From a virus: DNA of 27,999 bases. The translations under genes and the position numbers were made by a program. Positions 2,302-26,908 of the stretch are shown here, piece after piece. The DNA lies in IMG/VR virus record IMGVR_UViG_3300036829_000014, positions 1 through 27,999 of that record; one strand, written 5' to 3'. How positions within the stretch are numbered: position 1 is the stretch's first letter; every line of letters begins with the position of its first letter. The notes beneath the pieces are model-generated. The model worked only from the letters and a program-made list of their open reading frames with translations, did not search any database and had not been told where the DNA came from.

Positions 2302-2535
2302 TTAAAATAGGGATGCCTGGAGGAACTCTTCGACAGCATCAGGTCGCTCCTCCAGTAGAGCTTCCCGCATTTCGCGCTTCTTCTCAGCCAGCTCTCGCGT
2401 CTCTTCCTCGACTTCCAACTGTCGACGATGAATCGCGTAGAGCTGCTGAGTGGACATCTTGTCGACTCGCTCAGACCATTTGTTACTGAGCGGGTACATG
2501 GACTTGACGTATTTACGTACTTGGGATTCGTTCAT
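2302..2535 (-). CDS. Small helical charged protein, unknown function
   Basis: The product is 77 aa, starting at the ATG of MNESQVRKYVKSMYPLSNKW. This ATG shares one base with the TAA of the upstream gene (TAATG), a typical coupled start, so the longer in-frame reading inside the upstream gene is rejected. The N-terminal third is basic. The rest is a highly charged heptad-like helix rich in Glu, Arg and Lys (QLEVEEETRELAEKKREMRE), probably a coiled coil. The arrangement suggests a small adaptor or DNA/RNA-associated protein, but no family function is known to me. The gene ends 11 bases before the DUF6353 start and belongs to the same operon. Confidence 0.75.
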   Translation of the reverse strand: MNESQVRKYVKSMYPLSNKWSERVDKMSTQQLYAIHRRQLEVEEETRELAEKKREMREALLEERPDAVEEFLQASLF

Positions 2536-3143
2536 TATCCAATCGGGGTAGGGTCTGGTAGATCCAGCAAATAGCCTTCCCTGACTTTGGCTACTCCGGC
2601 TCCTCTTAGATCTGTCCAACCCCACTTGTAATCTGTATGGGCGGAATCGAATCCGACCAATTCATACAAGTCAGCAACGCTGGCCGTATCATACTTCCCG
2701 ACCAGATCGAAAAGCCGGTCAATAACATCCTCCGCTTCGGCTCGAGATGTCAACACAATCTCATCGAAATCGTGTCGAGCTCGTGCCCTCCGGCTCATAA
2801 CCGGCTGCGGGGCTTGGGCTGGCTGCGACATCCTGTGGTACTGCACGTACCCAGTTGGCCCAGCCATAGGTGACGGAGCTCCACCACGGCGGCGCCCGTC
2901 TCCGAGAATCAAACGCCTCAAATATGACTCTCCTGCATCAACGATCAATTCCCTGGCAGCAGGAACAAGCACGTCAAACAGGACATATTGAAACGTCGAT
3001 CGAGTATCGTTAGCTACGAAAGTCTCTCTGAATTGCTTTCGCAGAGGCTTCTTTCTACGGTGTGCCTCCGACGAGGTAACCCGCTCAACTCGCTTCGGCT
3101 TTCCGGACTTGCTTGCATCGCTGTTTGGCGGAAAGTCTTCCAT
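2535..3143 (-). CDS. Conserved phage protein with C-terminal KWGWTDLRGA motif
   Basis: The product is 202 aa. The start abuts the stop of the upstream gene with no gap, and there is a short AAAGGAG-like site (AAAAGAGGAATTAA). The N-terminus is basic and disordered (KSGKPKRVERVTSSEAHRRK). A helical middle contains VLFDVLVPAARELIVDAGES, followed by a Gly/Pro/Arg-rich linker. The conserved C-terminal domain begins around DFDEIVLTSRAEAEDVIDRL and ends with YKWGWTDLRGAGVAKVREGY and LDLPDP. I recognise this C-terminal block from small unknown proteins of many phages of Gram-positive hosts, but its function is not established. A basic tail plus a compact domain could fit nucleic-acid or protein binding, which is inference only. 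Confidence 0.8.
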   Translation of the reverse strand: MEDFPPNSDASKSGKPKRVERVTSSEAHRRKKPLRKQFRETFVANDTRSTFQYVLFDVLVPAARELIVDAGESYLRRLILGDGRRRGGAPSPMAGPTGYVQYHRMSQPAQAPQPVMSRRARARHDFDEIVLTSRAEAEDVIDRLFDLVGKYDTASVADLYELVGFDSAHTDYKWGWTDLRGAGVAKVREGYLLDLPDPTPIG

Positions 3144-3765: not shown

Positions 3766-4335
3766 TTACTCGAGAATCTTCAAGCTCCCAGCACGAAGTT
3801 CGGCCTGCGCCATTTCGAAATCGCTTGTGGAGAGATTCATGAACTCTTCCCTAGTAATAGTACGCGCCTGAACCTGCTCCTCAGGCGGTCGAACACCACC
3901 CATAGGGGATTGAGTAACCCCTTCGTTGTTCTGAGCAAGAACTTTCTCGGTTTCATCAATCAGATCCTTCGGCATGATCCCGGTTATGAAAGCCGAGGCA
4001 GCATCTGCATCTGTGACTAGTTCCATGAAGAATGTGGAATATGCCTCAGATGATTCGAAATCTGAACGAAGCTGATCGTTCTTGATGAAGCGCTTGCCAT
4101 CCGTCGACTTGACTCCGTAAGAGCCAAGAATGAGCTTCTTCATCTCCTGCATGATGACCTTACCGTTGACCTTTCCTTCCGGATCGGTCTCGATCATTCG
4201 CTGCATGGTTTCGGAGAAGCCTCCTTCCATGCTCAGCTCGAGCTCGACCAGCTCTGCGCGAGTCATGTTGAAGTAGAAGACTTCCGTCTCCTCCTCCCCG
4301 TTAAAATTGGTGTAAGTGATTGTCTTCTTGAGCAT
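3766..4335 (-). CDS. Conserved phage protein resembling a tail assembly chaperone
   Basis: The product is 189 aa. The start at MLKKTITYTNFNGEEETEVF is set by a strong AGGAGGTAAC site directly upstream; the longer in-frame extension has no such site. The opening beta-strand pair, MTRAELVELELSMEGG, the YGVKSTDGKRFIKNDQLR block and EAYSTFFMELVTDADAASAF match a widespread family in phages of Gram-positive hosts. Several members are annotated as tail assembly chaperone-like because the fold prediction and the lengths resemble lambda gpG relatives. The C-terminal third is an acidic, low-complexity tail (RPPEEQVQARTITREEFMN). It lies far from the tail genes, after the lysis genes, so a chaperone role here is uncertain. 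It ends just before promoter P1. Confidence 0.8.
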   Translation of the reverse strand: MLKKTITYTNFNGEEETEVFYFNMTRAELVELELSMEGGFSETMQRMIETDPEGKVNGKVIMQEMKKLILGSYGVKSTDGKRFIKNDQLRSDFESSEAYSTFFMELVTDADAASAFITGIMPKDLIDETEKVLAQNNEGVTQSPMGGVRPPEEQVQARTITREEFMNLSTSDFEMAQAELRAGSLKILE

Positions 4336-4343
4336 GTTACCTC

Positions 4344-5159
4344 CTAGTAGAACTTGTTGTAGTTTGGCTGAGGATGAGCACCAAAGTCGACCGCAATGCA
4401 TGGACGACCATCAGAAGACATGGTCGTCGAGAAAGCAATCGTCAATTGGTTATCGAGATTCCAGCCAACCTCGTCTGAGACTCCGGTCGGAGGCAATCCA
4501 ATCTCGTCATATAGCGAGCTGAGGCTCGCGTAGCTGTGGTTAATGATGTTGAAGTTGATCGTGTTCTCAGCCTTCTTGATTTCTTCAACACTGCTCTGGA
4601 AATACCTACCAGAGTAAATATCGAAGCACAGCACCTCTCCGGTTCCGGCAAGGATCACTTCTCGCGTGTTTACAGGAACTTTGTCCACCTTGTCCTGAGC
4701 CAGAGCCTCTCGGACAGACAGTTCCTTGTTCTCGCCAAGCTTCTCAACTACCTTGGCCTTGTACTCCTGGAGTGCTTTCTCTGATACACTCGAAGCAATC
4801 GTCAAAGCAGCAATCTGATTCGATGCCACCCGATTACCTGTCAGAATTGCCGCTAGAGTTCCAGCACCAGTGATAAATGGAGGAACATAAAGCGGATACA
4901 CAAGCTTGATCTTTTCGCGAAAAGTCAAGTCTGGTAAACCAGTGAAATCGTTTCCGATTGTCCTTGGTGTCCTATCGTCATCTCGAACTGGAGAAAGGTT
5001 GAGTGATTCTTTGTGAATCAATCTCGCGGCCTTGTATCCTGCCTGATGCGACAAATATGACGTACCGACTACGCCAGCGGACCCTGCCCCGGTAAGGAGC
5101 AGGGTTGAGTGATTGCTGGTGAACTGCTTGGCCTTACCGATGAGTTCTGCGATGTGCAC
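4344..5159 (-). CDS. DUF6353-like membrane protein, paralogue 1
   Basis: The product is 271 aa. I chose the GTG of (M)HIAELIGKAKQF because AAAGGTGG is five bases upstream. A TTG 15 bases earlier is possible but overlaps that ribosome binding site. The first membrane segment is LLLTGAGSAGVVGTSYLS near residue 20-40. The second is YPLYVPPFITGAGTLAAILT about 85 residues further. Next are a helical stretch (ALQEYKAKVVEKLGENKE) and a soluble C-terminal domain with YASLSSLYDEIGLPPTGVSD and VGWN. Order and motifs match the gene at 1362-2291, so these are paralogues. DUF6353 has no known activity. The first 26 bases overlap the end of the 47-aa micro-protein gene upstream, suggesting coupled translation. 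Confidence 0.85.
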   Translation of the reverse strand: MHIAELIGKAKQFTSNHSTLLLTGAGSAGVVGTSYLSHQAGYKAARLIHKESLNLSPVRDDDRTPRTIGNDFTGLPDLTFREKIKLVYPLYVPPFITGAGTLAAILTGNRVASNQIAALTIASSVSEKALQEYKAKVVEKLGENKELSVREALAQDKVDKVPVNTREVILAGTGEVLCFDIYSGRYFQSSVEEIKKAENTINFNIINHSYASLSSLYDEIGLPPTGVSDEVGWNLDNQLTIAFSTTMSSDGRPCIAVDFGAHPQPNYNKFY

Positions 5160-5277
5160 GGTTCCACCTTTCAATTAGCGACATGACGAGGTCATACATA
5201 TAGTCTATGGTTAGCCACATTATGAACCAAAATAACAACGCGACAGAAAGCCACGTTGCCGTTTGCACAGAGATCAT
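5134..5277 (-). CDS. 47-aa single-span membrane micro-protein
   Basis: The ATG overlaps the TGA of the 43-aa gene upstream (ATGA), and the TAA lies 26 bases inside the following DUF6353 gene. The product starts MISVQTATWLSVALLFWFIM, continues WLTIDYMYDLVMSLIERWNR and ends AHRRTHR. This gives one hydrophobic span at about residues 8-24 and a basic, aromatic C-terminus, which predicts an N-out, C-in topology. No family is recognised. The tight overlaps at both ends and the clear membrane character are the evidence that it is real. Its short length means conventional length filters would miss it. Confidence 0.6.
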   Translation of the reverse strand: MISVQTATWLSVALLFWFIMWLTIDYMYDLVMSLIERWNRAHRRTHR

Positions 5278-19631: not shown

Positions 19632-21710
19632 TCAGGCACCCGGCGTGTTCATGAACGTCCACTGCGTGTCGGCGTCCTCGCTGAAGTAATGGCCCGCTGC
19701 CGGTGTGGCAACGATCTCCAGCGTCTCACCGTCTGGCACTGCGATCGGCGAACCAGCCGCATTCACAACAGCACCGGTATCAGCACGCGTGTACACCACG
19801 TTCGGGGTATTGACAATTGTGATGGCGCTACCATCGAACGTCGGCTCAGTCGGAACAACCGGCGTGTCACCAGCAGCAGCACCCTGCCAGACAACCAGCG
19901 CTGACCGGATCTTGGTCAAAGCGCCGACGCACCGGGTCTCCAGCAGGTACTTGTACTGGTTGTAGTCGATGTCGAAGAAGTCAAAGAAATTGACCTCTCC
20001 GCCCTTGTCGGTACCGATCGTGTAGTCGGTCATATTGACGATGATACCGAACACATCGGGACGGCTCTCCATCACTTCGACCGGGACAATCGCTGCCACA
20101 CCAAGCTCCGCCGCGAGGTCGGAAGCTGTGCGGTACAGACGACGACCCAGCGTATCGCGAGCCAAGAGCATGTAGCTCAAGTTCGGTAGAGTCGTGTACA
20201 GGGTCGGAGAACCCGAACCCTTGTAGTACCGCATATTGGTGATGATCGCATCGACGACTTCCGTCGGCGATGAGCTGGCGTCTGCCAGATTGACGTTGAC
20301 ATCAACCTTGTAGAGCTCGTGCTCGTTGAGAATCGAGCGGATGCCAATACCATCGACAACTCCGGACGGATCCTTGATCTTGTCCTCGTCGTCGGCAGCG
20401 CGACCGTCGCCGATGAGTACCGCGCGAGCGAGCTCCTCGTCCAGCATCAGGCGCATCTCCGCCTTCAGCCAGACAACGACATCGAAATCCGTGATGTCGA
20501 GGATGTCGTCACGATCCAGCCTCTGTTTCTTGTAGATCGTGGTCGGGAGGGTGGTTCGACGCGAAACTGCGAAGAACTCCTCCTTCTTCAGAGTACCCTT
20601 GATGTAGCCACGCGCACGTGCCTCATCGTAGGTAATATCGGCAACGATCTGCTTGATCCGTGTGAACGGGATCTTGCGAGCACCGTCGATGACTCCGGCA
20701 ACCCACTCGACGCGACGGCTCAGGAACTCCGGCGTGTCGGTGATGTTTCGGACTTCGGGGAACAGGACATCGATGTTCTCAATGCCATGACTGAGAGCAT
20801 AACTCTCAACGGCGGCCTTCAGAGAGCCCTTGCTTGCGGCGTCCTCGAAGATGCCACGCATCGCGTCATGCGTGAGAACGTGCTGATCCTGATCCCCCTT
20901 GTTGCCTTCGTTCTGCTGCTCGAAGACGTTGCGGCTCATGCTCCGCCCTTTCTTGTCATTGTTGTCGTTATCATCCTTGGACTCTCCGTCCTTAGAATGA
21001 GTTGCTGTGGGTAGATTCTGCTTCGCGTCCTCGAGCGCAGCACCAACGAAGTAATGCACTACTTCCTTCTGTTGGCCTGTCATCGAGTCATAGACCTGCT
21101 GAACCGTCACGTTGTCGGTTTCGTCTGCCTCATCGGCACCCTGGTCGGCAACGTCTTCCGGATCGTCGATCACGGGATTATCTGCGTGCTCTAGCGGCAA
21201 GCCGGTGTAGATGATTGCCTCATCTTCCAGCGTGACCATGTCACCATCCGCGTGCGCGAGAGTGATGTTGTCAATCAACGCGCCCGGATTTGCACCGGCG
21301 AGGCAGAGACTCACTTCGCGGATTACGCCGTGAAAGACCTGCTTCGACTTCTCGATCAGCTGGTTGGCATAGATCGAGAGAGACTTGATGTCCTTGTGAG
21401 ACACCAGAGTCTTGGAGTTCTCCGCCTGTGGCGTACCATTGAAGTAGCCGTAGCAGTAAACGCCGTCGTTACCTCGGTTCTCGAGCACGACGTGCCCCAG
21501 AACATTGTCAGGTGTGTCATGATTGTGCTGCCAAACAAGCGGGACAGTCATCTTGTCCTGATGCTTGAAGGCATCTGGCATGATTGTCCGGCCATCTGTG
21601 CACTTGAGACCAGCCTTTGTGGCCCAGCCACTGAAATCCGGCTTGTCCGAGTGCATCAGGCTGCCCCCGATGACGACTTCATCATCGGAGAACTTGGCCT
21701 TTGCTTCCAT
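19632..21710 (-). CDS. Fused prohead protease-major capsid protein with C-terminal Ig-like domain
   Basis: The product is 692 aa, starting eight bases after AAGGAG. Residues 1-165 are an HK97-type (S78) prohead protease, with the catalytic His in QHNHDTPDNVLGHV (62/64) and Ser in IKSLSIYAN (112). Residues about 175-260 are an acidic linker containing YDSMTGQQKEVVHYFVGAAL, perhaps the scaffold-like delta part. Residues about 260-615 are the HK97-fold capsid (GIENIDVLFPEVRNITDTPE, VVWLKAEMRLMLDEELARAV, FDIDYNQYKYLLETR). Residues about 620-692 form an Ig-like domain (GETLEIVATPAAGHYFSEDA, ending in DTQWTF) similar to that of tail tube 1. Self-cleavage would release the capsid; the exact sites are not visible. 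Confidence 0.93.
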   Translation of the reverse strand: MEAKAKFSDDEVVIGGSLMHSDKPDFSGWATKAGLKCTDGRTIMPDAFKHQDKMTVPLVWQHNHDTPDNVLGHVVLENRGNDGVYCYGYFNGTPQAENSKTLVSHKDIKSLSIYANQLIEKSKQVFHGVIREVSLCLAGANPGALIDNITLAHADGDMVTLEDEAIIYTGLPLEHADNPVIDDPEDVADQGADEADETDNVTVQQVYDSMTGQQKEVVHYFVGAALEDAKQNLPTATHSKDGESKDDNDNNDKKGRSMSRNVFEQQNEGNKGDQDQHVLTHDAMRGIFEDAASKGSLKAAVESYALSHGIENIDVLFPEVRNITDTPEFLSRRVEWVAGVIDGARKIPFTRIKQIVADITYDEARARGYIKGTLKKEEFFAVSRRTTLPTTIYKKQRLDRDDILDITDFDVVVWLKAEMRLMLDEELARAVLIGDGRAADDEDKIKDPSGVVDGIGIRSILNEHELYKVDVNVNLADASSSPTEVVDAIITNMRYYKGSGSPTLYTTLPNLSYMLLARDTLGRRLYRTASDLAAELGVAAIVPVEVMESRPDVFGIIVNMTDYTIGTDKGGEVNFFDFFDIDYNQYKYLLETRCVGALTKIRSALVVWQGAAAGDTPVVPTEPTFDGSAITIVNTPNVVYTRADTGAVVNAAGSPIAVPDGETLEIVATPAAGHYFSEDADTQWTFMNTPGA

Positions 21711-21746: not shown

Positions 21747-23060
21747 TTAGCCGTTTCCATTGTTGCTGTTCCCGTTCCCATTGGACGAGGCGCCTACCGG
21801 ATCACCCCCGTTGCTTGTGCTTGGGTTGGCGGCTCCGCTGCTTGTTTCTGAGAATCCGCTGATCGTCTGACCTCGGATGTTGCTGTTGATCAGCTTGTCC
21901 GCCTTCTCCTCCTTCGAAGGACGGTAACCAATGATCTGCCTAATCTCGTTGGCAGCCAGGATCTCGTTACGACTGAAGACGTCTGCGATCTTGGCGATGT
22001 TCTCGATTGGGATCAATCGGAACGGATCACGGAAGTAAAGAACAGATTGACCTTGGCTGCGAGCAGTCTTGGTAAGGAAGCTTCGACACATCGCTTCGCT
22101 GACTGCAGTAAGAATTGGATCAATCGTACGATTCCAGTAATTCAACATCGTCTTCTCATCGGCCGTTCCATTCATGATTTCGGCCGTGATTCCAAGCTGC
22201 CCATACAACATCTCAATCAAATACTCAACCTGAGTCATAAGGTTGTTTTCAGCAGGACGATTAAGCTGAGTAATCTTCTCAGTTCCATCCGTATAGGCAA
22301 TACCGTACTTGCTGCCTTTCAACTGGAACTCAATGTCAGACCGACGCTGCTCCGCTTGTTGGCGACGAGCTTCGGACTTGATTACATAGGGGAGTTGGAC
22401 AATTAGATCAAGTTTTCCTGAAGCCGAAGCTTCATCAACGGTGTCCAGAAGTGAAAGCTTGTACTGCAGTCGCTTCAAGGTAGAGTTCGGTTCATTCATC
22501 GCCTCGTATAGAGGATTCTCGACGATGGCGACCGCAGATTTTGGAAGCGTAACTTCTTGGCGCGTTTGTGTAGCTTCATTAAACAAACTGATACGCACAT
22601 GCTTCGGGAACCACTGAGTGATTCGTCCAACACGCATGGTCAGGATGTCATAACCGCCAACTGTACTTCCTGGATTGATTGAGGTGTCCACTGGGACGAT
22701 GGCCACAATGCCCTCATCGAGCATCGTCATAACAATGTCCTGACGGAATGCCGTCGGGCCTTGGTCAATGTTGGCTTCTACAGTGAGGCAGTCATTGAGC
22801 CCACTTTCCATGTCATCACTGTAACGATCTTGATCATCTAGCCGAACGTGGCGCATGGCAACCGACGCGGCATCGATTCCAATACGGGTATAAATTGAGG
22901 AGATGATCGTGCGATCAAGATTGAACCGGTGCCAAGTTCGATCTGGCTTTCTTCCGGCGCTTGCTCCGTAGTACTCTGTCTGAGGCGATGTTCTACGCGC
23001 CTGTTCTGTGCTGGTAAAGATGTTCCAAGCGTGTTTCAGCGCGGAACCAAATCGTGACAC
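21747..23060 (-). CDS. Portal protein
   Basis: The product is 437 aa with a GTG start after GGAGGTGGAGG. The portal is the dodecameric ring at the capsid vertex through which DNA is packaged. Features of the siphovirus portal family are the N-terminal helix (GSALKHAWNIFTSTEQARRT), IISSIYTRIGIDAASVAMRH, AIVPVDTSINPGSTVGGYDI, a strand-rich wing, LIEMLYGQLGITAEIMNGTA, and the long helical stem ending RNEILAANEIRQIIGYRPSK. The last 40 residues are low-complexity Ser/Asn/Gly (NGNGNSNNGNG) and probably disordered, which is not needed for portal function and may bind internal proteins. The position between terminase and protease-capsid is standard. Confidence 0.95.
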   Translation of the reverse strand: MSRFGSALKHAWNIFTSTEQARRTSPQTEYYGASAGRKPDRTWHRFNLDRTIISSIYTRIGIDAASVAMRHVRLDDQDRYSDDMESGLNDCLTVEANIDQGPTAFRQDIVMTMLDEGIVAIVPVDTSINPGSTVGGYDILTMRVGRITQWFPKHVRISLFNEATQTRQEVTLPKSAVAIVENPLYEAMNEPNSTLKRLQYKLSLLDTVDEASASGKLDLIVQLPYVIKSEARRQQAEQRRSDIEFQLKGSKYGIAYTDGTEKITQLNRPAENNLMTQVEYLIEMLYGQLGITAEIMNGTADEKTMLNYWNRTIDPILTAVSEAMCRSFLTKTARSQGQSVLYFRDPFRLIPIENIAKIADVFSRNEILAANEIRQIIGYRPSKEEKADKLINSNIRGQTISGFSETSSGAANPSTSNGGDPVGASSNGNGNSNNGNG

Positions 23061-23079: not shown

Positions 23080-24825
23080 TCACTCGAAGACCTCCTTATT
23101 AGCCTTGTATGTAACCCAAGCATCCATCAACGCCGCCACATTGTCGATCTTCTCATCTTGGCGTTTCTTCAAGAGCTTCCTGTTACCATTGGTATCCTCG
23201 ATCGTAATCGAGTTACCCATGGCAAACGACATCAGCGCCTGATCGAAGATCAGGAGACGCTGCTCACTCAACTTCTTCAATTCACCAAGTGGGACCGATT
23301 CGGTCTTAGCTCCTTGGATTACCTTGTCGACAGCAAACGGACCGTTCTCTGCGACCCAGCGCTCGACAAACTCCTTGGCGTTGTACGGGTCATAGCCCAA
23401 GGCTCGCGTGTCGTACTCAGATGCGATGATGAACGCATCAAGATCATCATAGACTTCCATCATGTCCAAGACGGTTCCTGGCATGACGTGCAAGCTTCCT
23501 TCACTGATGAACTCGTCATACTTCTGCCGCATTGCCGCAGGTAGTTTCATCAACGTCAACTCAGTGATGTAACTCCTGGTCTTGATTCCGAACTTCTCTC
23601 CCCCTAGGGGAAACAGAAACGTGAATGCGCAGAAGTCATCGCCCTGCGATAGGTCCGCACCGAGAGCACAGGGCATCTGCCAGAATTCTCTCGGACGATG
23701 CGGTAGTGTCTCTTCATACGTGAAGAAATAGGTGTAACCTTCCATAGGAATCCCGAATCGCTTAGCAAGAATGTCGTTTCGGGATGCAGGAGCCTTCTCC
23801 GCCCGCTCGACGTCCAGATGATATGTTTCATAAGATACGGTCGCTCCTAGATTCGGGTTTGCTTTCCTCCACGTTGCAGGATCGCCAACTTCATCAATCT
23901 CATCGAGCTTGTAATGCCAGATGGAAACGTGCGGCGCTTGGTACTCACCCTTGAGTATGTCAGCAAGTTCCATTTTGATTGTATCGCCGGAACTATTACG
24001 GACGGTTCCCTCCGAGCTAATAGCTACAATGAGATAGTCGTCGAGTTTTGAAGCACCTTGCTCAACTGCGCCAACAACGTCCTCTCGTAGATCTCCGGAT
24101 AACCACTCGTCAATTGTAGAGATCTTGGGTCGTAGTCCCTGAAGCTTGTTGATGGACATTGGTCGTACTTCCAGTAACGAGCCGGTGAGGAAGTTCTCAA
24201 TGCCCTTCTTTGTGGCTGCGAGCTTGACACGATTGGCCCTCGATCCTGTTGTGTTTTGCAGAGAGCCCTCTGTGAGGAATTTGAACAGTGGTCCTCGCGC
24301 GCGCGTGATAGCAGTTCTGTTCGGCGACATGACTTCGTCCGCCTGTTTCATCGTTGGCGCCGTTGTAATCTGATGCGTCGTTGCTGTATCTATGTTCAGA
24401 AAGTAACTTTGAATCAACGATGCGTACATAGATTTGGCGGCTCCACGAGCAACGATCAAGTACTGCTTTAGGATCAAGCGTTTCTTAATCGTACGAGTTT
24501 CATAGTGTCCTCCATGGTTGTCTGGAGTAGGTACATAAACACTACGTTCAACAAAGTAGTACCAACCGAAGATCTGTTCTGCCCACAGTTTGAATGAAGG
24601 AAGTAGATGTAAGTCAGATCCATCAGTAAGAGTAAGCTCCCCTTCGCAGTACTCTATGAAACCCTCAACTGCCTGATCGTCGTAGTATATGTTAGGATTA
24701 GCAATGAGATTGTCAATGCGATTCATCTCCAGTGAGATTTCACGGTTGACTGGAATCTCACCATCGAGAACTGCTTTACGAAACTGACCGTAGTAGATCG
24801 GCATCGCAGTATTAGACAACCCCAT
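23080..24825 (-). CDS. terL: Terminase large subunit
   Basis: The product is 581 aa and powers and cuts DNA during packaging. The Walker A motif is ARGAAKS at residues 126-132 (Ala in place of the usual second Gly). Walker B is STIDEW with Asp239-Glu240. A coupling motif AISSEGT lies near 269-274. The C-terminal nuclease domain has conserved acids at Asp391 (ALGADLSQGDDF) and Asp479 (LGYDPYNA), as in RNase H-like terminase nucleases. The start has GAAAGGGGG upstream. The length and motif order are normal. It follows the DUF6131-like micro-protein gene and precedes the portal gene by 19 bases. Confidence 0.97.
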   Translation of the reverse strand: MGLSNTAMPIYYGQFRKAVLDGEIPVNREISLEMNRIDNLIANPNIYYDDQAVEGFIEYCEGELTLTDGSDLHLLPSFKLWAEQIFGWYYFVERSVYVPTPDNHGGHYETRTIKKRLILKQYLIVARGAAKSMYASLIQSYFLNIDTATTHQITTAPTMKQADEVMSPNRTAITRARGPLFKFLTEGSLQNTTGSRANRVKLAATKKGIENFLTGSLLEVRPMSINKLQGLRPKISTIDEWLSGDLREDVVGAVEQGASKLDDYLIVAISSEGTVRNSSGDTIKMELADILKGEYQAPHVSIWHYKLDEIDEVGDPATWRKANPNLGATVSYETYHLDVERAEKAPASRNDILAKRFGIPMEGYTYFFTYEETLPHRPREFWQMPCALGADLSQGDDFCAFTFLFPLGGEKFGIKTRSYITELTLMKLPAAMRQKYDEFISEGSLHVMPGTVLDMMEVYDDLDAFIIASEYDTRALGYDPYNAKEFVERWVAENGPFAVDKVIQGAKTESVPLGELKKLSEQRLLIFDQALMSFAMGNSITIEDTNGNRKLLKKRQDEKIDNVAALMDAWVTYKANKEVFE

Positions 24826-24840
24826 CGCTAACCCCCTTTC

Positions 24841-25005
24841 TTAGTATGGCGGCGGACCCCTTCGACTGTGCCAGTTTGAATAGCCATACGGAACTTGCGG
24901 TACGAAGAACAGAATTACTCCGATAACAATCAGAATAATTCCAAGTGTATGCAGGGTGGTAAGAGCCCATAGAATGACTCCTACTACGATCAATAACGGT
25001 CCCAA
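24841..25005 (-). CDS. 54-aa two-span membrane micro-protein, DUF6131-like, TTG start
   Basis: The TTG start follows GGGAGGTGAT with a five-base spacer and lies 14 bases after the stop of the 2H gene. The product is (M)GPLLIVVGVILWALTTLH, then TLGIILIVIGVILFFV and a basic aromatic tail (PYGYSNWHSRRGPPPY). Two short hydrophobic spans separated by TTLHT and the Arg/Tyr tail closely resemble DUF6131 proteins, which are widespread in actinobacteria and their phages and have no known function. The match is by remembered pattern. The gene would be missed by ATG-only searches or length filters. An unrelated frame over the same bases, with an earlier TTG, gives no sensible protein. Confidence 0.8.
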   Translation of the reverse strand: MGPLLIVVGVILWALTTLHTLGIILIVIGVILFFVPQVPYGYSNWHSRRGPPPY

Positions 25006-25019
25006 ACAATCACCTCCCG

Positions 25020-25967
25020 TTAGAGTATTGCTGCCGCAACGGCGGCTTTTCCGGCCTTAGTAATTGCGGCACTTTCAAGTCGGTTCAGCTGCTGGTTTCC
25101 CTGACCCTTTAGATTTCCTGAAATGAATCGCCTGGCAGCAGATTTGTTTTGCTGCTCAAGCCGCTTCACGTTCTGCTCGAGATTGAGACGCTCGGCGTAT
25201 TGACGGAGCTCCTCGTTGGAAAGAGACTGGTGCCCAGACTTCTTGGATTTCTGGCCAAGAGACTTTGCGGCAACGGCTTCCTTGGCTGCAGGATGGCCCT
25301 GCCCACCTTCCGCCTTTAGCCTCTTCTTGCCTTTCTGAGTAACAGTTACCGCCCTTGGAGATCCTTCGCCCTTGCGGACACCCCAACGCATACCCTTGAC
25401 GCCGTGATGCGAAATTATGTCGCTCATCTTTGCCGACCAAGCTGCGTCAGGTACATCGATATCGTACGGTCGAGGAGCATCATCAGCACCCTCGACGAGT
25501 GGAAAGGAAGTACCTGCGTAATCTGTATTCCAGACCGCGATCTTGTCGAACGTCACATAATCGACTTCTCCAGGATCCAGTTTATACTCTTTTGCAGGAG
25601 TTTCTGGGTATCCTAGGGTAATATGCGGCGTCCACTCAGGATACTGCTGCTGAGAGTTGTACGCGCTACGTATATTGACATCGCCCCGTAACATACTGTT
25701 GAAATCAAGAACCGGATAGGGAATATCGTCCGAGAAGAACAAGACATCTGCCTGATCGGGCCCAAGGATTCCTCGATGATCAACTCGAAGACTGAACGGC
25801 TCCATGTACTTGGTATACTTCTGGACGCTTTCGCAAATCTCGTCGAAATTCGGGTTGGAGTCCGCATCTCCGAGAAACAGAAACGTCATGTGCGGAACCT
25901 TCTCACTAGATTCCTGCCAAATATCGTCATCAGTAGCCGGAATGGCTACGATGCAGAGATTAGCCAT
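25020..25967 (-). CDS. 2H phosphoesterase fused to HGVKGMRWGVR structural tag and coiled coil
   Basis: The product is 315 aa. Two HxT motifs, His26-Met-Thr28 (PHMTFLFLG) and His115-Ile-Thr117 (PHITLGYP), define a 2H phosphoesterase / 2'-5' RNA ligase-like domain over residues 1-165. Enzymes of this superfamily cut 2',3'-cyclic or 2'-5' linked phosphodiesters. Residues 187-199 (HHGVKGMRWGVRK) are a short tag seen in many phage head-associated proteins. The rest is basic (TQKGKKRLKAEGG), then a charged coiled coil (NEELRQYAERLNLEQNVKRL) and an Ala-rich end. The combination suggests an enzyme packaged in, or tied to, the virion. Possible roles are RNA repair or removal of cyclic-nucleotide defence signals. 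It overlaps the connector gene by eight bases. Confidence 0.85.
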   Translation of the reverse strand: MANLCIVAIPATDDDIWQESSEKVPHMTFLFLGDADSNPNFDEICESVQKYTKYMEPFSLRVDHRGILGPDQADVLFFSDDIPYPVLDFNSMLRGDVNIRSAYNSQQQYPEWTPHITLGYPETPAKEYKLDPGEVDYVTFDKIAVWNTDYAGTSFPLVEGADDAPRPYDIDVPDAAWSAKMSDIISHHGVKGMRWGVRKGEGSPRAVTVTQKGKKRLKAEGGQGHPAAKEAVAAKSLGQKSKKSGHQSLSNEELRQYAERLNLEQNVKRLEQQNKSAARRFISGNLKGQGNQQLNRLESAAITKAGKAAVAAAIL

Positions 25968-26382
25968 AGAAGATCAGACCTCCTTCCCATCCGTCGTTCG
26001 GGTCTCGACTTGGAAGAACTGTTTCAGGATCGGGATCGACCCAGCCAGTTTCCTCACGGTGCACATTAAGACGCCACTCGAGCTCCTCAAGCTGCTTATT
26101 GAATGCATCAGTAAGGTACGCTGTTGTTGGCGGGTCAAACAGAAGACGAACACGTAGATGTACATACGTTTTGACCGAATTGTATTGAGCATCGTCGCCA
26201 ATAAAATCCGACCAGAGTGCAGTATCGTCCTCAATCGCATACCCCCCAATAGGCCCGACGCCAAGCTGGGTGAGAGTGGAAAGAGCACCATTAATGAACG
26301 TGATAATATCCAGATCGAAGGCAGTATAGTCGGCTGTAATATTCAGAGTCTTCTTTGTGCTGATTAGAATGCTGTTTTCCAT
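25960..26382 (-). CDS. gp6-like head-tail connector protein
   Basis: The product is 140 aa, with AAGGAGGTGAG before the ATG. The helical blocks ITADYTAFDLDIITFINGAL and STLTQLGVGPIGGYAIEDDT, then FIGDDAQYNSVKTYVHLRVR and FDPPTTAYLTDAFNKQLEEL followed by EWRLN, match gp6-like connectors, the first ring added to the portal. The C-terminal 25 residues (DPDPETVLPSRDPNDGWEGG) are acidic and flexible. Connector genes usually follow the capsid gene, so the placement before the terminase is unusual. Moderate doubt remains whether this copy acts as the connector. Confidence 0.8.
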   Translation of the reverse strand: MENSILISTKKTLNITADYTAFDLDIITFINGALSTLTQLGVGPIGGYAIEDDTALWSDFIGDDAQYNSVKTYVHLRVRLLFDPPTTAYLTDAFNKQLEELEWRLNVHREETGWVDPDPETVLPSRDPNDGWEGGLIFYG

Positions 26383-26401: not shown

Positions 26402-26908
26402 TTAGATATATCGACGCATAAGTTCACGTCGCCGATCTTTTCGATAATCCATTGGTAGGATGAACGGCCCCGATTCGCCACCATGCGAAAAGACGTGTCC
26501 ACCTCCAATGTAAATCGCCGTATGCTCCGAAATGCCGCCACCCTGGTCGCCATAGAAAATTCCATCGCCGATCAGAAGATTGCTTTCGTGCTTGACTTGC
26601 TTCCCACCGCTCTGAGCCGTTCCGGTGTAACCGGCTTTCCAGGCAGCATGATTGACAAGGTCATGCACGTGGTAAGAACGTGCAATGGCATCCCAGATCA
26701 ACCAGGTGAGAGTACTGGAACAATCCGCGTGATGTGGAAATGTCCCATCTAGATGATTACAGCGGTGATCGATCCCTTCCCAGCGTCGTGGGCCTTGGGT
26801 ATAGTGGATCGCTGCTTGATGCTGCATCATGTTGTGCACATCTTTGATAATGACGCGCCTTGCGTGGAATGCCTGAGCATCACTCAGGCCTGAAACACGA
26901 GCTGTCAC
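26402..26908 (-). CDS. NlpC/P60-type peptidoglycan hydrolase (probable endolysin)
   Basis: The product is 168 aa with a GTG start overlapping the previous stop by four bases (GTGA). The nucleophile Cys63 lies in HADCSSTLTWLIWDA. The catalytic His129 is in SEHTAIYIGGGHVFSHG, with His138 or His142 as further candidates. Blocks HYTQGPRRWEGI, WKAGYTGTAQSGGKQV and the IGDGIFYG turn fit the NlpC/P60 fold and resemble lysins of actinophages. It would cleave peptide stems in the host wall. It has no signal peptide and no separate wall-binding domain, so it probably relies on the holin (6270-6659), about 20 kb away. It may also be virion-associated. Confidence 0.85.
   Translation of the reverse strand: MTARVSGLSDAQAFHARRVIIKDVHNMMQHQAAIHYTQGPRRWEGIDHRCNHLDGTFPHHADCSSTLTWLIWDAIARSYHVHDLVNHAAWKAGYTGTAQSGGKQVKHESNLLIGDGIFYGDQGGGISEHTAIYIGGGHVFSHGGESGPFILPMDYRKDRRRELMRRYI

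Follow-up and report, generated by a model that had tools for sequence, protein, structure and literature searches.

Results

Gene neighbourhood of the tagged 2H protein

The window analysed here is an IMG/VR virus record of 27,999 bp. At positions 25020-25967(-) it holds an ATG-start open reading frame (ORF) of 315 residues that comprises a 2H phosphoesterase domain, one DUF7211 motif (the tag) and a basic helical tail. The protein was annotated with Pfam and PHROGs, and the latter assigns it to phrog_24711 (1.9e-57), a family without function. The order of genes on the minus strand is a phrog_4259 protein, an HNH protein, a proline-rich ORF, an NlpC/P60 protein, a connector, the 2H-tag protein, a 54-residue membrane-type ORF, the terminase large subunit (TerL), the portal protein and a fusion of head maturation protease with major capsid protein. 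The connector gene (25960-26382(-); Phage_connect_2, PF24829 1.1e-37, phrog_4247), which encodes a virion structural protein, lies upstream and shares eight bases with the 5' end of the 2H gene. On the other side lie TerL (23080-24825(-); phrog_9, PF20441), the portal (21747-23060(-); PF04860, phrog_12) and the protease-capsid fusion (19632-21710(-); phrog_3270 2.6e-227), which is the capsid type that co-occurs with the tag. The position next to the connector and the terminase, noted in the initial annotation, is borne out. Neither Pfam nor PHROGs detects a MuF or portal domain in the protein chain. The short ORF that separates the 2H gene from TerL (24841-25005(-), TTG start) encodes two hydrophobic segments and no tag, and it has a GGAGG site.

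A 2H domain of LigT-like build

The N-terminal part of the protein (residues 1 to about 159; 25494-25967(-)) matches the 2H profiles PF13563 (E 1.2e-8) and PF02834 (E 2.5e-7). As first proposed from the letters of the DNA, two intact HxT motifs provide a 2H active site, H26-M-T28 (25884-25892(-)) and H115-I-T117 (25617-25625(-)). In an alignment of 61 relatives both histidines and both threonines are invariant wherever the sequence covers them, which is the case in 58 of 58 relatives for the first motif and 61 of 61 for the second. An AlphaFold2 (AF2) model of the window protein built on this alignment gives a confident, bilobed 2H fold with a pLDDT of about 95 for residues 1-160.

The top solved folds matching the modelled domain are an archaeal 2'-5' RNA ligase-like protein (Z 13.0) and E. 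coli LigT (12.9), followed by Arabidopsis CPDase (12.9), the rotavirus VP3 phosphodiesterase (PDE; 12.2) and Usb1 (12.2). The phage BCSR5 PDE (9.3), the penguinpox cGAMP PDE (9.2) and Acb1 (7t26; 8.9) score lower. Because the nearest solved folds are LigT, CPDase, VP3 PDE and Usb1, the model describes a 2H phosphoesterase of LigT-like build; sequence searches with the window protein returned no credible solved relative. A specific likeness to Acb1, as suggested at the outset, is not supported. Membership of the Acb1 family (PF23474) was rejected by profile score (13.8 bits against a cut-off of 27), only 5 of the 61 relatives match this family even at E 0.1, and Acb1 falls well below LigT, VP3 and Usb1 in a structural comparison in which all of them have the superfamily fold. 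The LigT/ThpR equivalog TIGR02258 (RNA 2',3'-cyclic phosphodiesterase) is matched weakly by 55 of the 61 relatives, and the window protein scores 25.8 bits against it, below the cut-off of 65.7.

A short tag carried by unrelated phage proteins

The tag (25365-25427(-)) has the core HHGVKGMRWGVR at residues 187-198 and matches PF23847 (DUF7211) over residues 181-201 with E 3.4e-9, scoring 36.4 bits against a cut-off of 27 (40.3 bits in a second search). The window holds one copy, and since about 6e-11 are expected in its six frames the tag is no chance string. It is predicted to be disordered on its own, with pLDDT below 50 at residues 186-202. The tail that follows (residues 229-314; 25026-25283(-)) contains an LSNEEL...RLNLE module and is predicted by AF2 to form helices at residues 229-244 and 251-314, mostly with pLDDT of 77-95 and with 55-68 over the last 35 residues; its basic character was assigned by inspection. 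Tag and basic tail stand in the same chain as the 2H domain, as the initial annotation had it.

A DNA pattern for HGVKGM[K/R]WG occurs in at least 120 IMG/VR stretches, many of them with two to four copies. With the tags masked, the bodies of 443 tagged ORFs fall into more than 120 clusters by single linkage, one of which is large. DUF7211 is matched by 148 of 148 non-redundant tagged proteins, and the partners recognised among these include GNAT (6), papain-fold glutamine deamidase (6), DUF6883, M90 peptidase and others; in addition, one tagged family has an HExxH metallopeptidase-like stretch identified by eye. Outside the 2H set, 311 of 356 proteins have a tag that begins at or before residue 40. 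Genomes carry between one and nine copies on mutually unrelated proteins. Among individual examples, gp10 of Streptomyces phage GirlPower (locus L131, 7520-8224) is tagged and contains the metallopeptidase-like LTHESGHAIF but receives no Pfam name, and gp15 of Gordonia phage Secretariat (locus L005, 9829-11382), encoded between TerL and portal, combines two tags with GNAT and a papain-fold glutamine deamidase of toxin type.

In bacterial genomes a stricter DNA form of the tag was found in only 9 contigs across 84,980 species, mostly gut MAGs, and the tag is therefore a phage feature that is rare in host genomes. Two further ideas were discarded. Hydrophobic segments are not enriched in tagged ORFs (38/339 versus 135/971 control ORFs), which removes a membrane anchor as a common property, and weak DUF7211 matches of 13-15 bits in an ORF of about 900-1,000 residues near the right end of several genomes were taken as chance because only profile positions 5-13 match. 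A search of the literature library found no paper under DUF7211 and no relevant one for its peptide forms; within that library the tag appears to be undescribed as a carrier.

Relatives and the conserved slot

A scan of IMG/VR with the window protein alone gave zero close relatives; a profile scan yielded 380 candidates, of which the best 80 loci were retained. The same gene occupies the same slot in phages of Streptomyces (Bingvirus), Gordonia (Deejayvirinae) and Rhodococcus (Pepyhexavirus), where it is annotated as phosphoesterase, RNA ligase, hydrolase or hypothetical. Tag residues H187, G189, G192, W195 and G196 are invariant wherever covered in the alignment of 61. The most frequent domain order among 2H architectures is 2H-tag-tail. 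Some 2H proteins (loci L043, L038, L191, L199, L187 and L189) have two or three tags, and in three of them (L038, L191 and L199) the order is 2H-tag-GNAT-tag-tail, which from sequence looks like one tag per payload.

The gene lies directly upstream of TerL for 78 of 87 2H-tag ORFs, and so do 55 of 69 tag-tail ORFs that have no 2H domain. One protein of the latter kind is gp07 of Lactococcus phage 1706, which has the same slot, two tags and a homologous tail (31% identity to the window protein over residues 176-270; E 3e-6 when just these two sequences are compared) and differs by the absent 2H domain. It is recorded as a 'structural protein', an annotation that probably goes back to Garneau 2008. 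This is most simply read as the gain of a 2H domain by a tag-tail carrier already in place.

Homologous 2H domains also have other fusion partners. In phages of Microbacterium and Arthrobacter (Squashvirus and Silentrexvirus) the partner is a MuF-type protein, and in Rasputia it is a protein with a portal annotation, so that the tag is a third 2H carrier besides MuF and portal. In a rough tree the tag-fused 2H domains form one large group. A 2H-tag protein at locus L083 (2-1453(+)) is placed among the MuF/portal type instead, which hints at a second, independent fusion event.

The tag accompanies a protease-capsid fusion head

In 12 complete phage genomes all tag matches over the cut-off, one to nine each, fall among the head genes that surround TerL and portal, so the link between tag and head genes drawn in the initial annotation recurs well beyond the window. 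Tags are likewise clustered in 19 large IMG/VR contigs, and 19 of 19 encode the protease-capsid fusion. Across 50,697 phage records the tag (searched at E up to 10) is present in 248 and the window's fusion in 244, a comparison of genus tallies rather than of individual records. The two tallies agree in Arthrobacter (95/95), Gordonia (55/55), Streptomyces (54/54), Lactococcus (13/13) and Curtobacterium (7/7), and are equal in Microbacterium too.

A reverse test started from 80 IMG/VR loci picked by the fusion alone, 37 of which hold connector, TerL, portal and capsid. A tagged ORF is present in 35 of these 37 complete loci and a 2H-tag ORF in 14. The remaining two have the same head module without a tagged gene: at L235 the connector gene abuts TerL directly, and at L233 the slot is filled by unrelated ORFs. 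The head can therefore be built without tagged proteins, which makes them accessory. The tag is linked almost exclusively to one capsid module, and the genome evidence strongly suggests that the 2H-tag protein is associated with the head. Both this link and the spread of the tag over many unrelated proteins go beyond the initial annotation. Given that the tag is nearly always found with one kind of phage head, its probable role is to mark proteins that are to be loaded into the virus particle.

Discussion

Our results provide a model in which the 2H-tag protein is an accessory, head-linked effector. The N-terminal domain would be an active LigT-type phosphodiesterase, and the DUF7211 tag together with the helical tail may form a carrier module that docks the protein to or into the prohead, which is made of the protease-capsid fusion protein. 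Once docked, the 2H protein would be packaged, and it would probably leave the particle together with the DNA. The most likely target of the 2H domain in the newly infected cell would be a host (oligo)nucleotide signal or an RNA linkage of the 2',3'-cyclic or 2'-5' type, and its hydrolysis would blunt a nucleotide-activated defence or process RNA; anti-CBASS action is one option among several for such an enzyme. Taken as a whole this is the best explanation of the data, and we regard it as reasonably probable. The genomic position fits a protein inside the head, outside it or at its neck alike.

The choice of substrate admits other readings. The 2H domain could repair or trim RNA ends bearing 2',3'-cyclic phosphate, or be an RNase, and have nothing to do with nucleotide-signal defence. 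The bacterial LigT 2',3'-cyclic phosphodiesterase and the exonuclease Usb1 are among its closest folds, most relatives show weak similarity to TIGR02258, and a Usb1-like RNase is one of the options named by Iyer et al. (PMC5512222). However, the window protein stays below the TIGR02258 cut-off, the same authors reportedly never saw such 2H versions with RNA ligases, and a domain fused to head proteins is more suggestive of early delivery than of repair late in infection. This reading is possible but somewhat unlikely. A virion-delivered enzyme that, like Acb1, specifically destroys CBASS cyclic oligonucleotides is doubtful. Acb1 has the same HxT/HxT catalytic tetrad (PMC9117128) and the overall fold is common to both proteins, and LigT-like PDEs recur in viruses as enzymes directed against signals (PMC11410667). 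Against this, the Acb1 profile is missed, LigT, VP3 and Usb1 are closer in structure, and the 2H fold serves many substrates. The solved Acb1 is a compact single-domain enzyme.

Other readings concern the tag and tail. These may serve the structure or assembly of the head itself, as a neck, scaffold or portal-binding element, in which case the 2H domain would be a bystander that acts only in the cell producing the phage. The structural annotation of 1706 gp07, which has no 2H domain, and a slot common to tag-tail proteins with and without 2H are what this arrangement would produce, but the same head also occurs in phages that lack any tagged protein, and one to nine tags on unrelated enzymes are unlike a scaffold; we consider it unlikely. 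Finally, co-occurrence of tag and capsid could be plain co-inheritance of the head module, an association expected from synteny because both are linked in the same 10-kb block, but a tag unrelated to the capsid is improbable given that the same peptide occurs on mutually unrelated bodies, and between domains inside polyproteins, and spans Actinomycetota and Bacillota phages with 31-54% capsid identity.

The proposed head-linked effector has counterparts in other systems. Rotavirus VP3 is carried in the virus particle, and its C-terminal 2',5'-phosphodiesterase is a 2H domain within a larger protein, although it belongs to a eukaryotic RNA virus with another carrier and another host pathway. 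In bacteriophage T4 the internal proteins and Alt have a short, mostly N-terminal capsid-targeting address, which is used on several unrelated proteins that are packaged in the head and injected. The likeness of these sequences to the DUF7211 tag is drawn as an analogy. Injection of Alt is noted in PMC5512222. Bacterial LigT/ThpR has the HxT/HxT tetrad and a closely similar fold (Z about 13), whereas the window protein is only 16-19% identical to it, has a tag and tail fused and is encoded in a phage head locus.

The nearest precedents are the MuF- and portal-fused 2H domains of 'polyvalent' proteins described by Iyer et al. in 2017 and 2022 (PMC5512222; PMC9503650). For such fusions these authors proposed packaging, injection and degradation of nucleotide signals. 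Their 2H domains are homologous to that of the window protein, at about 32-40% identity to the MuF-fused ones, and are likewise attached to a head-gene product with the same proposed role. Unlike them, the window protein uses a 12-residue DUF7211 tag and a helical tail as carrier, and the tag is reused on many proteins per genome. The window enzyme extends the already predicted class of head-linked 2H proteins, and it is the tag as a general head address that would be a real advance.

In its broadest form this proposal makes DUF7211 a portable address by which phages with the fusion head load one to nine exchangeable, injected effectors, sometimes as polyproteins separated by tags, the window protein being one payload. 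We give this extension an even chance. The tagged set read as effectors would include the 2H nuclease, the acetyltransferase, the deamidase, the metallopeptidase-like protein and others. If true, a 12-residue sequence would predict particle-borne proteins from genome data alone for one head type, which is shared by phages of Streptomyces, Gordonia, Arthrobacter, Lactococcus and gut Bacillota, and hundreds of 'hypothetical proteins' would become candidate early effectors and counter-defence genes. The tag would also offer a simple means of loading such heads with a protein of choice. With the 2H payload, the removal of nucleotide signals by a virion-delivered enzyme, to date no more than a prediction made for fusions to MuF and portal, could be put to the test in cultured phages.

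Two features elsewhere in the window deserve mention. The NlpC/P60-type protein at 26402-26908(-) occupies the place at which related phages have an endolysin. Two DUF6353 proteins (1362-2339 and 4344-5174(-)) lie in one tail region and flank other ORFs, including 2535-3143 and the tail assembly chaperone (3766-4401), an arrangement that looks like a gene duplication.
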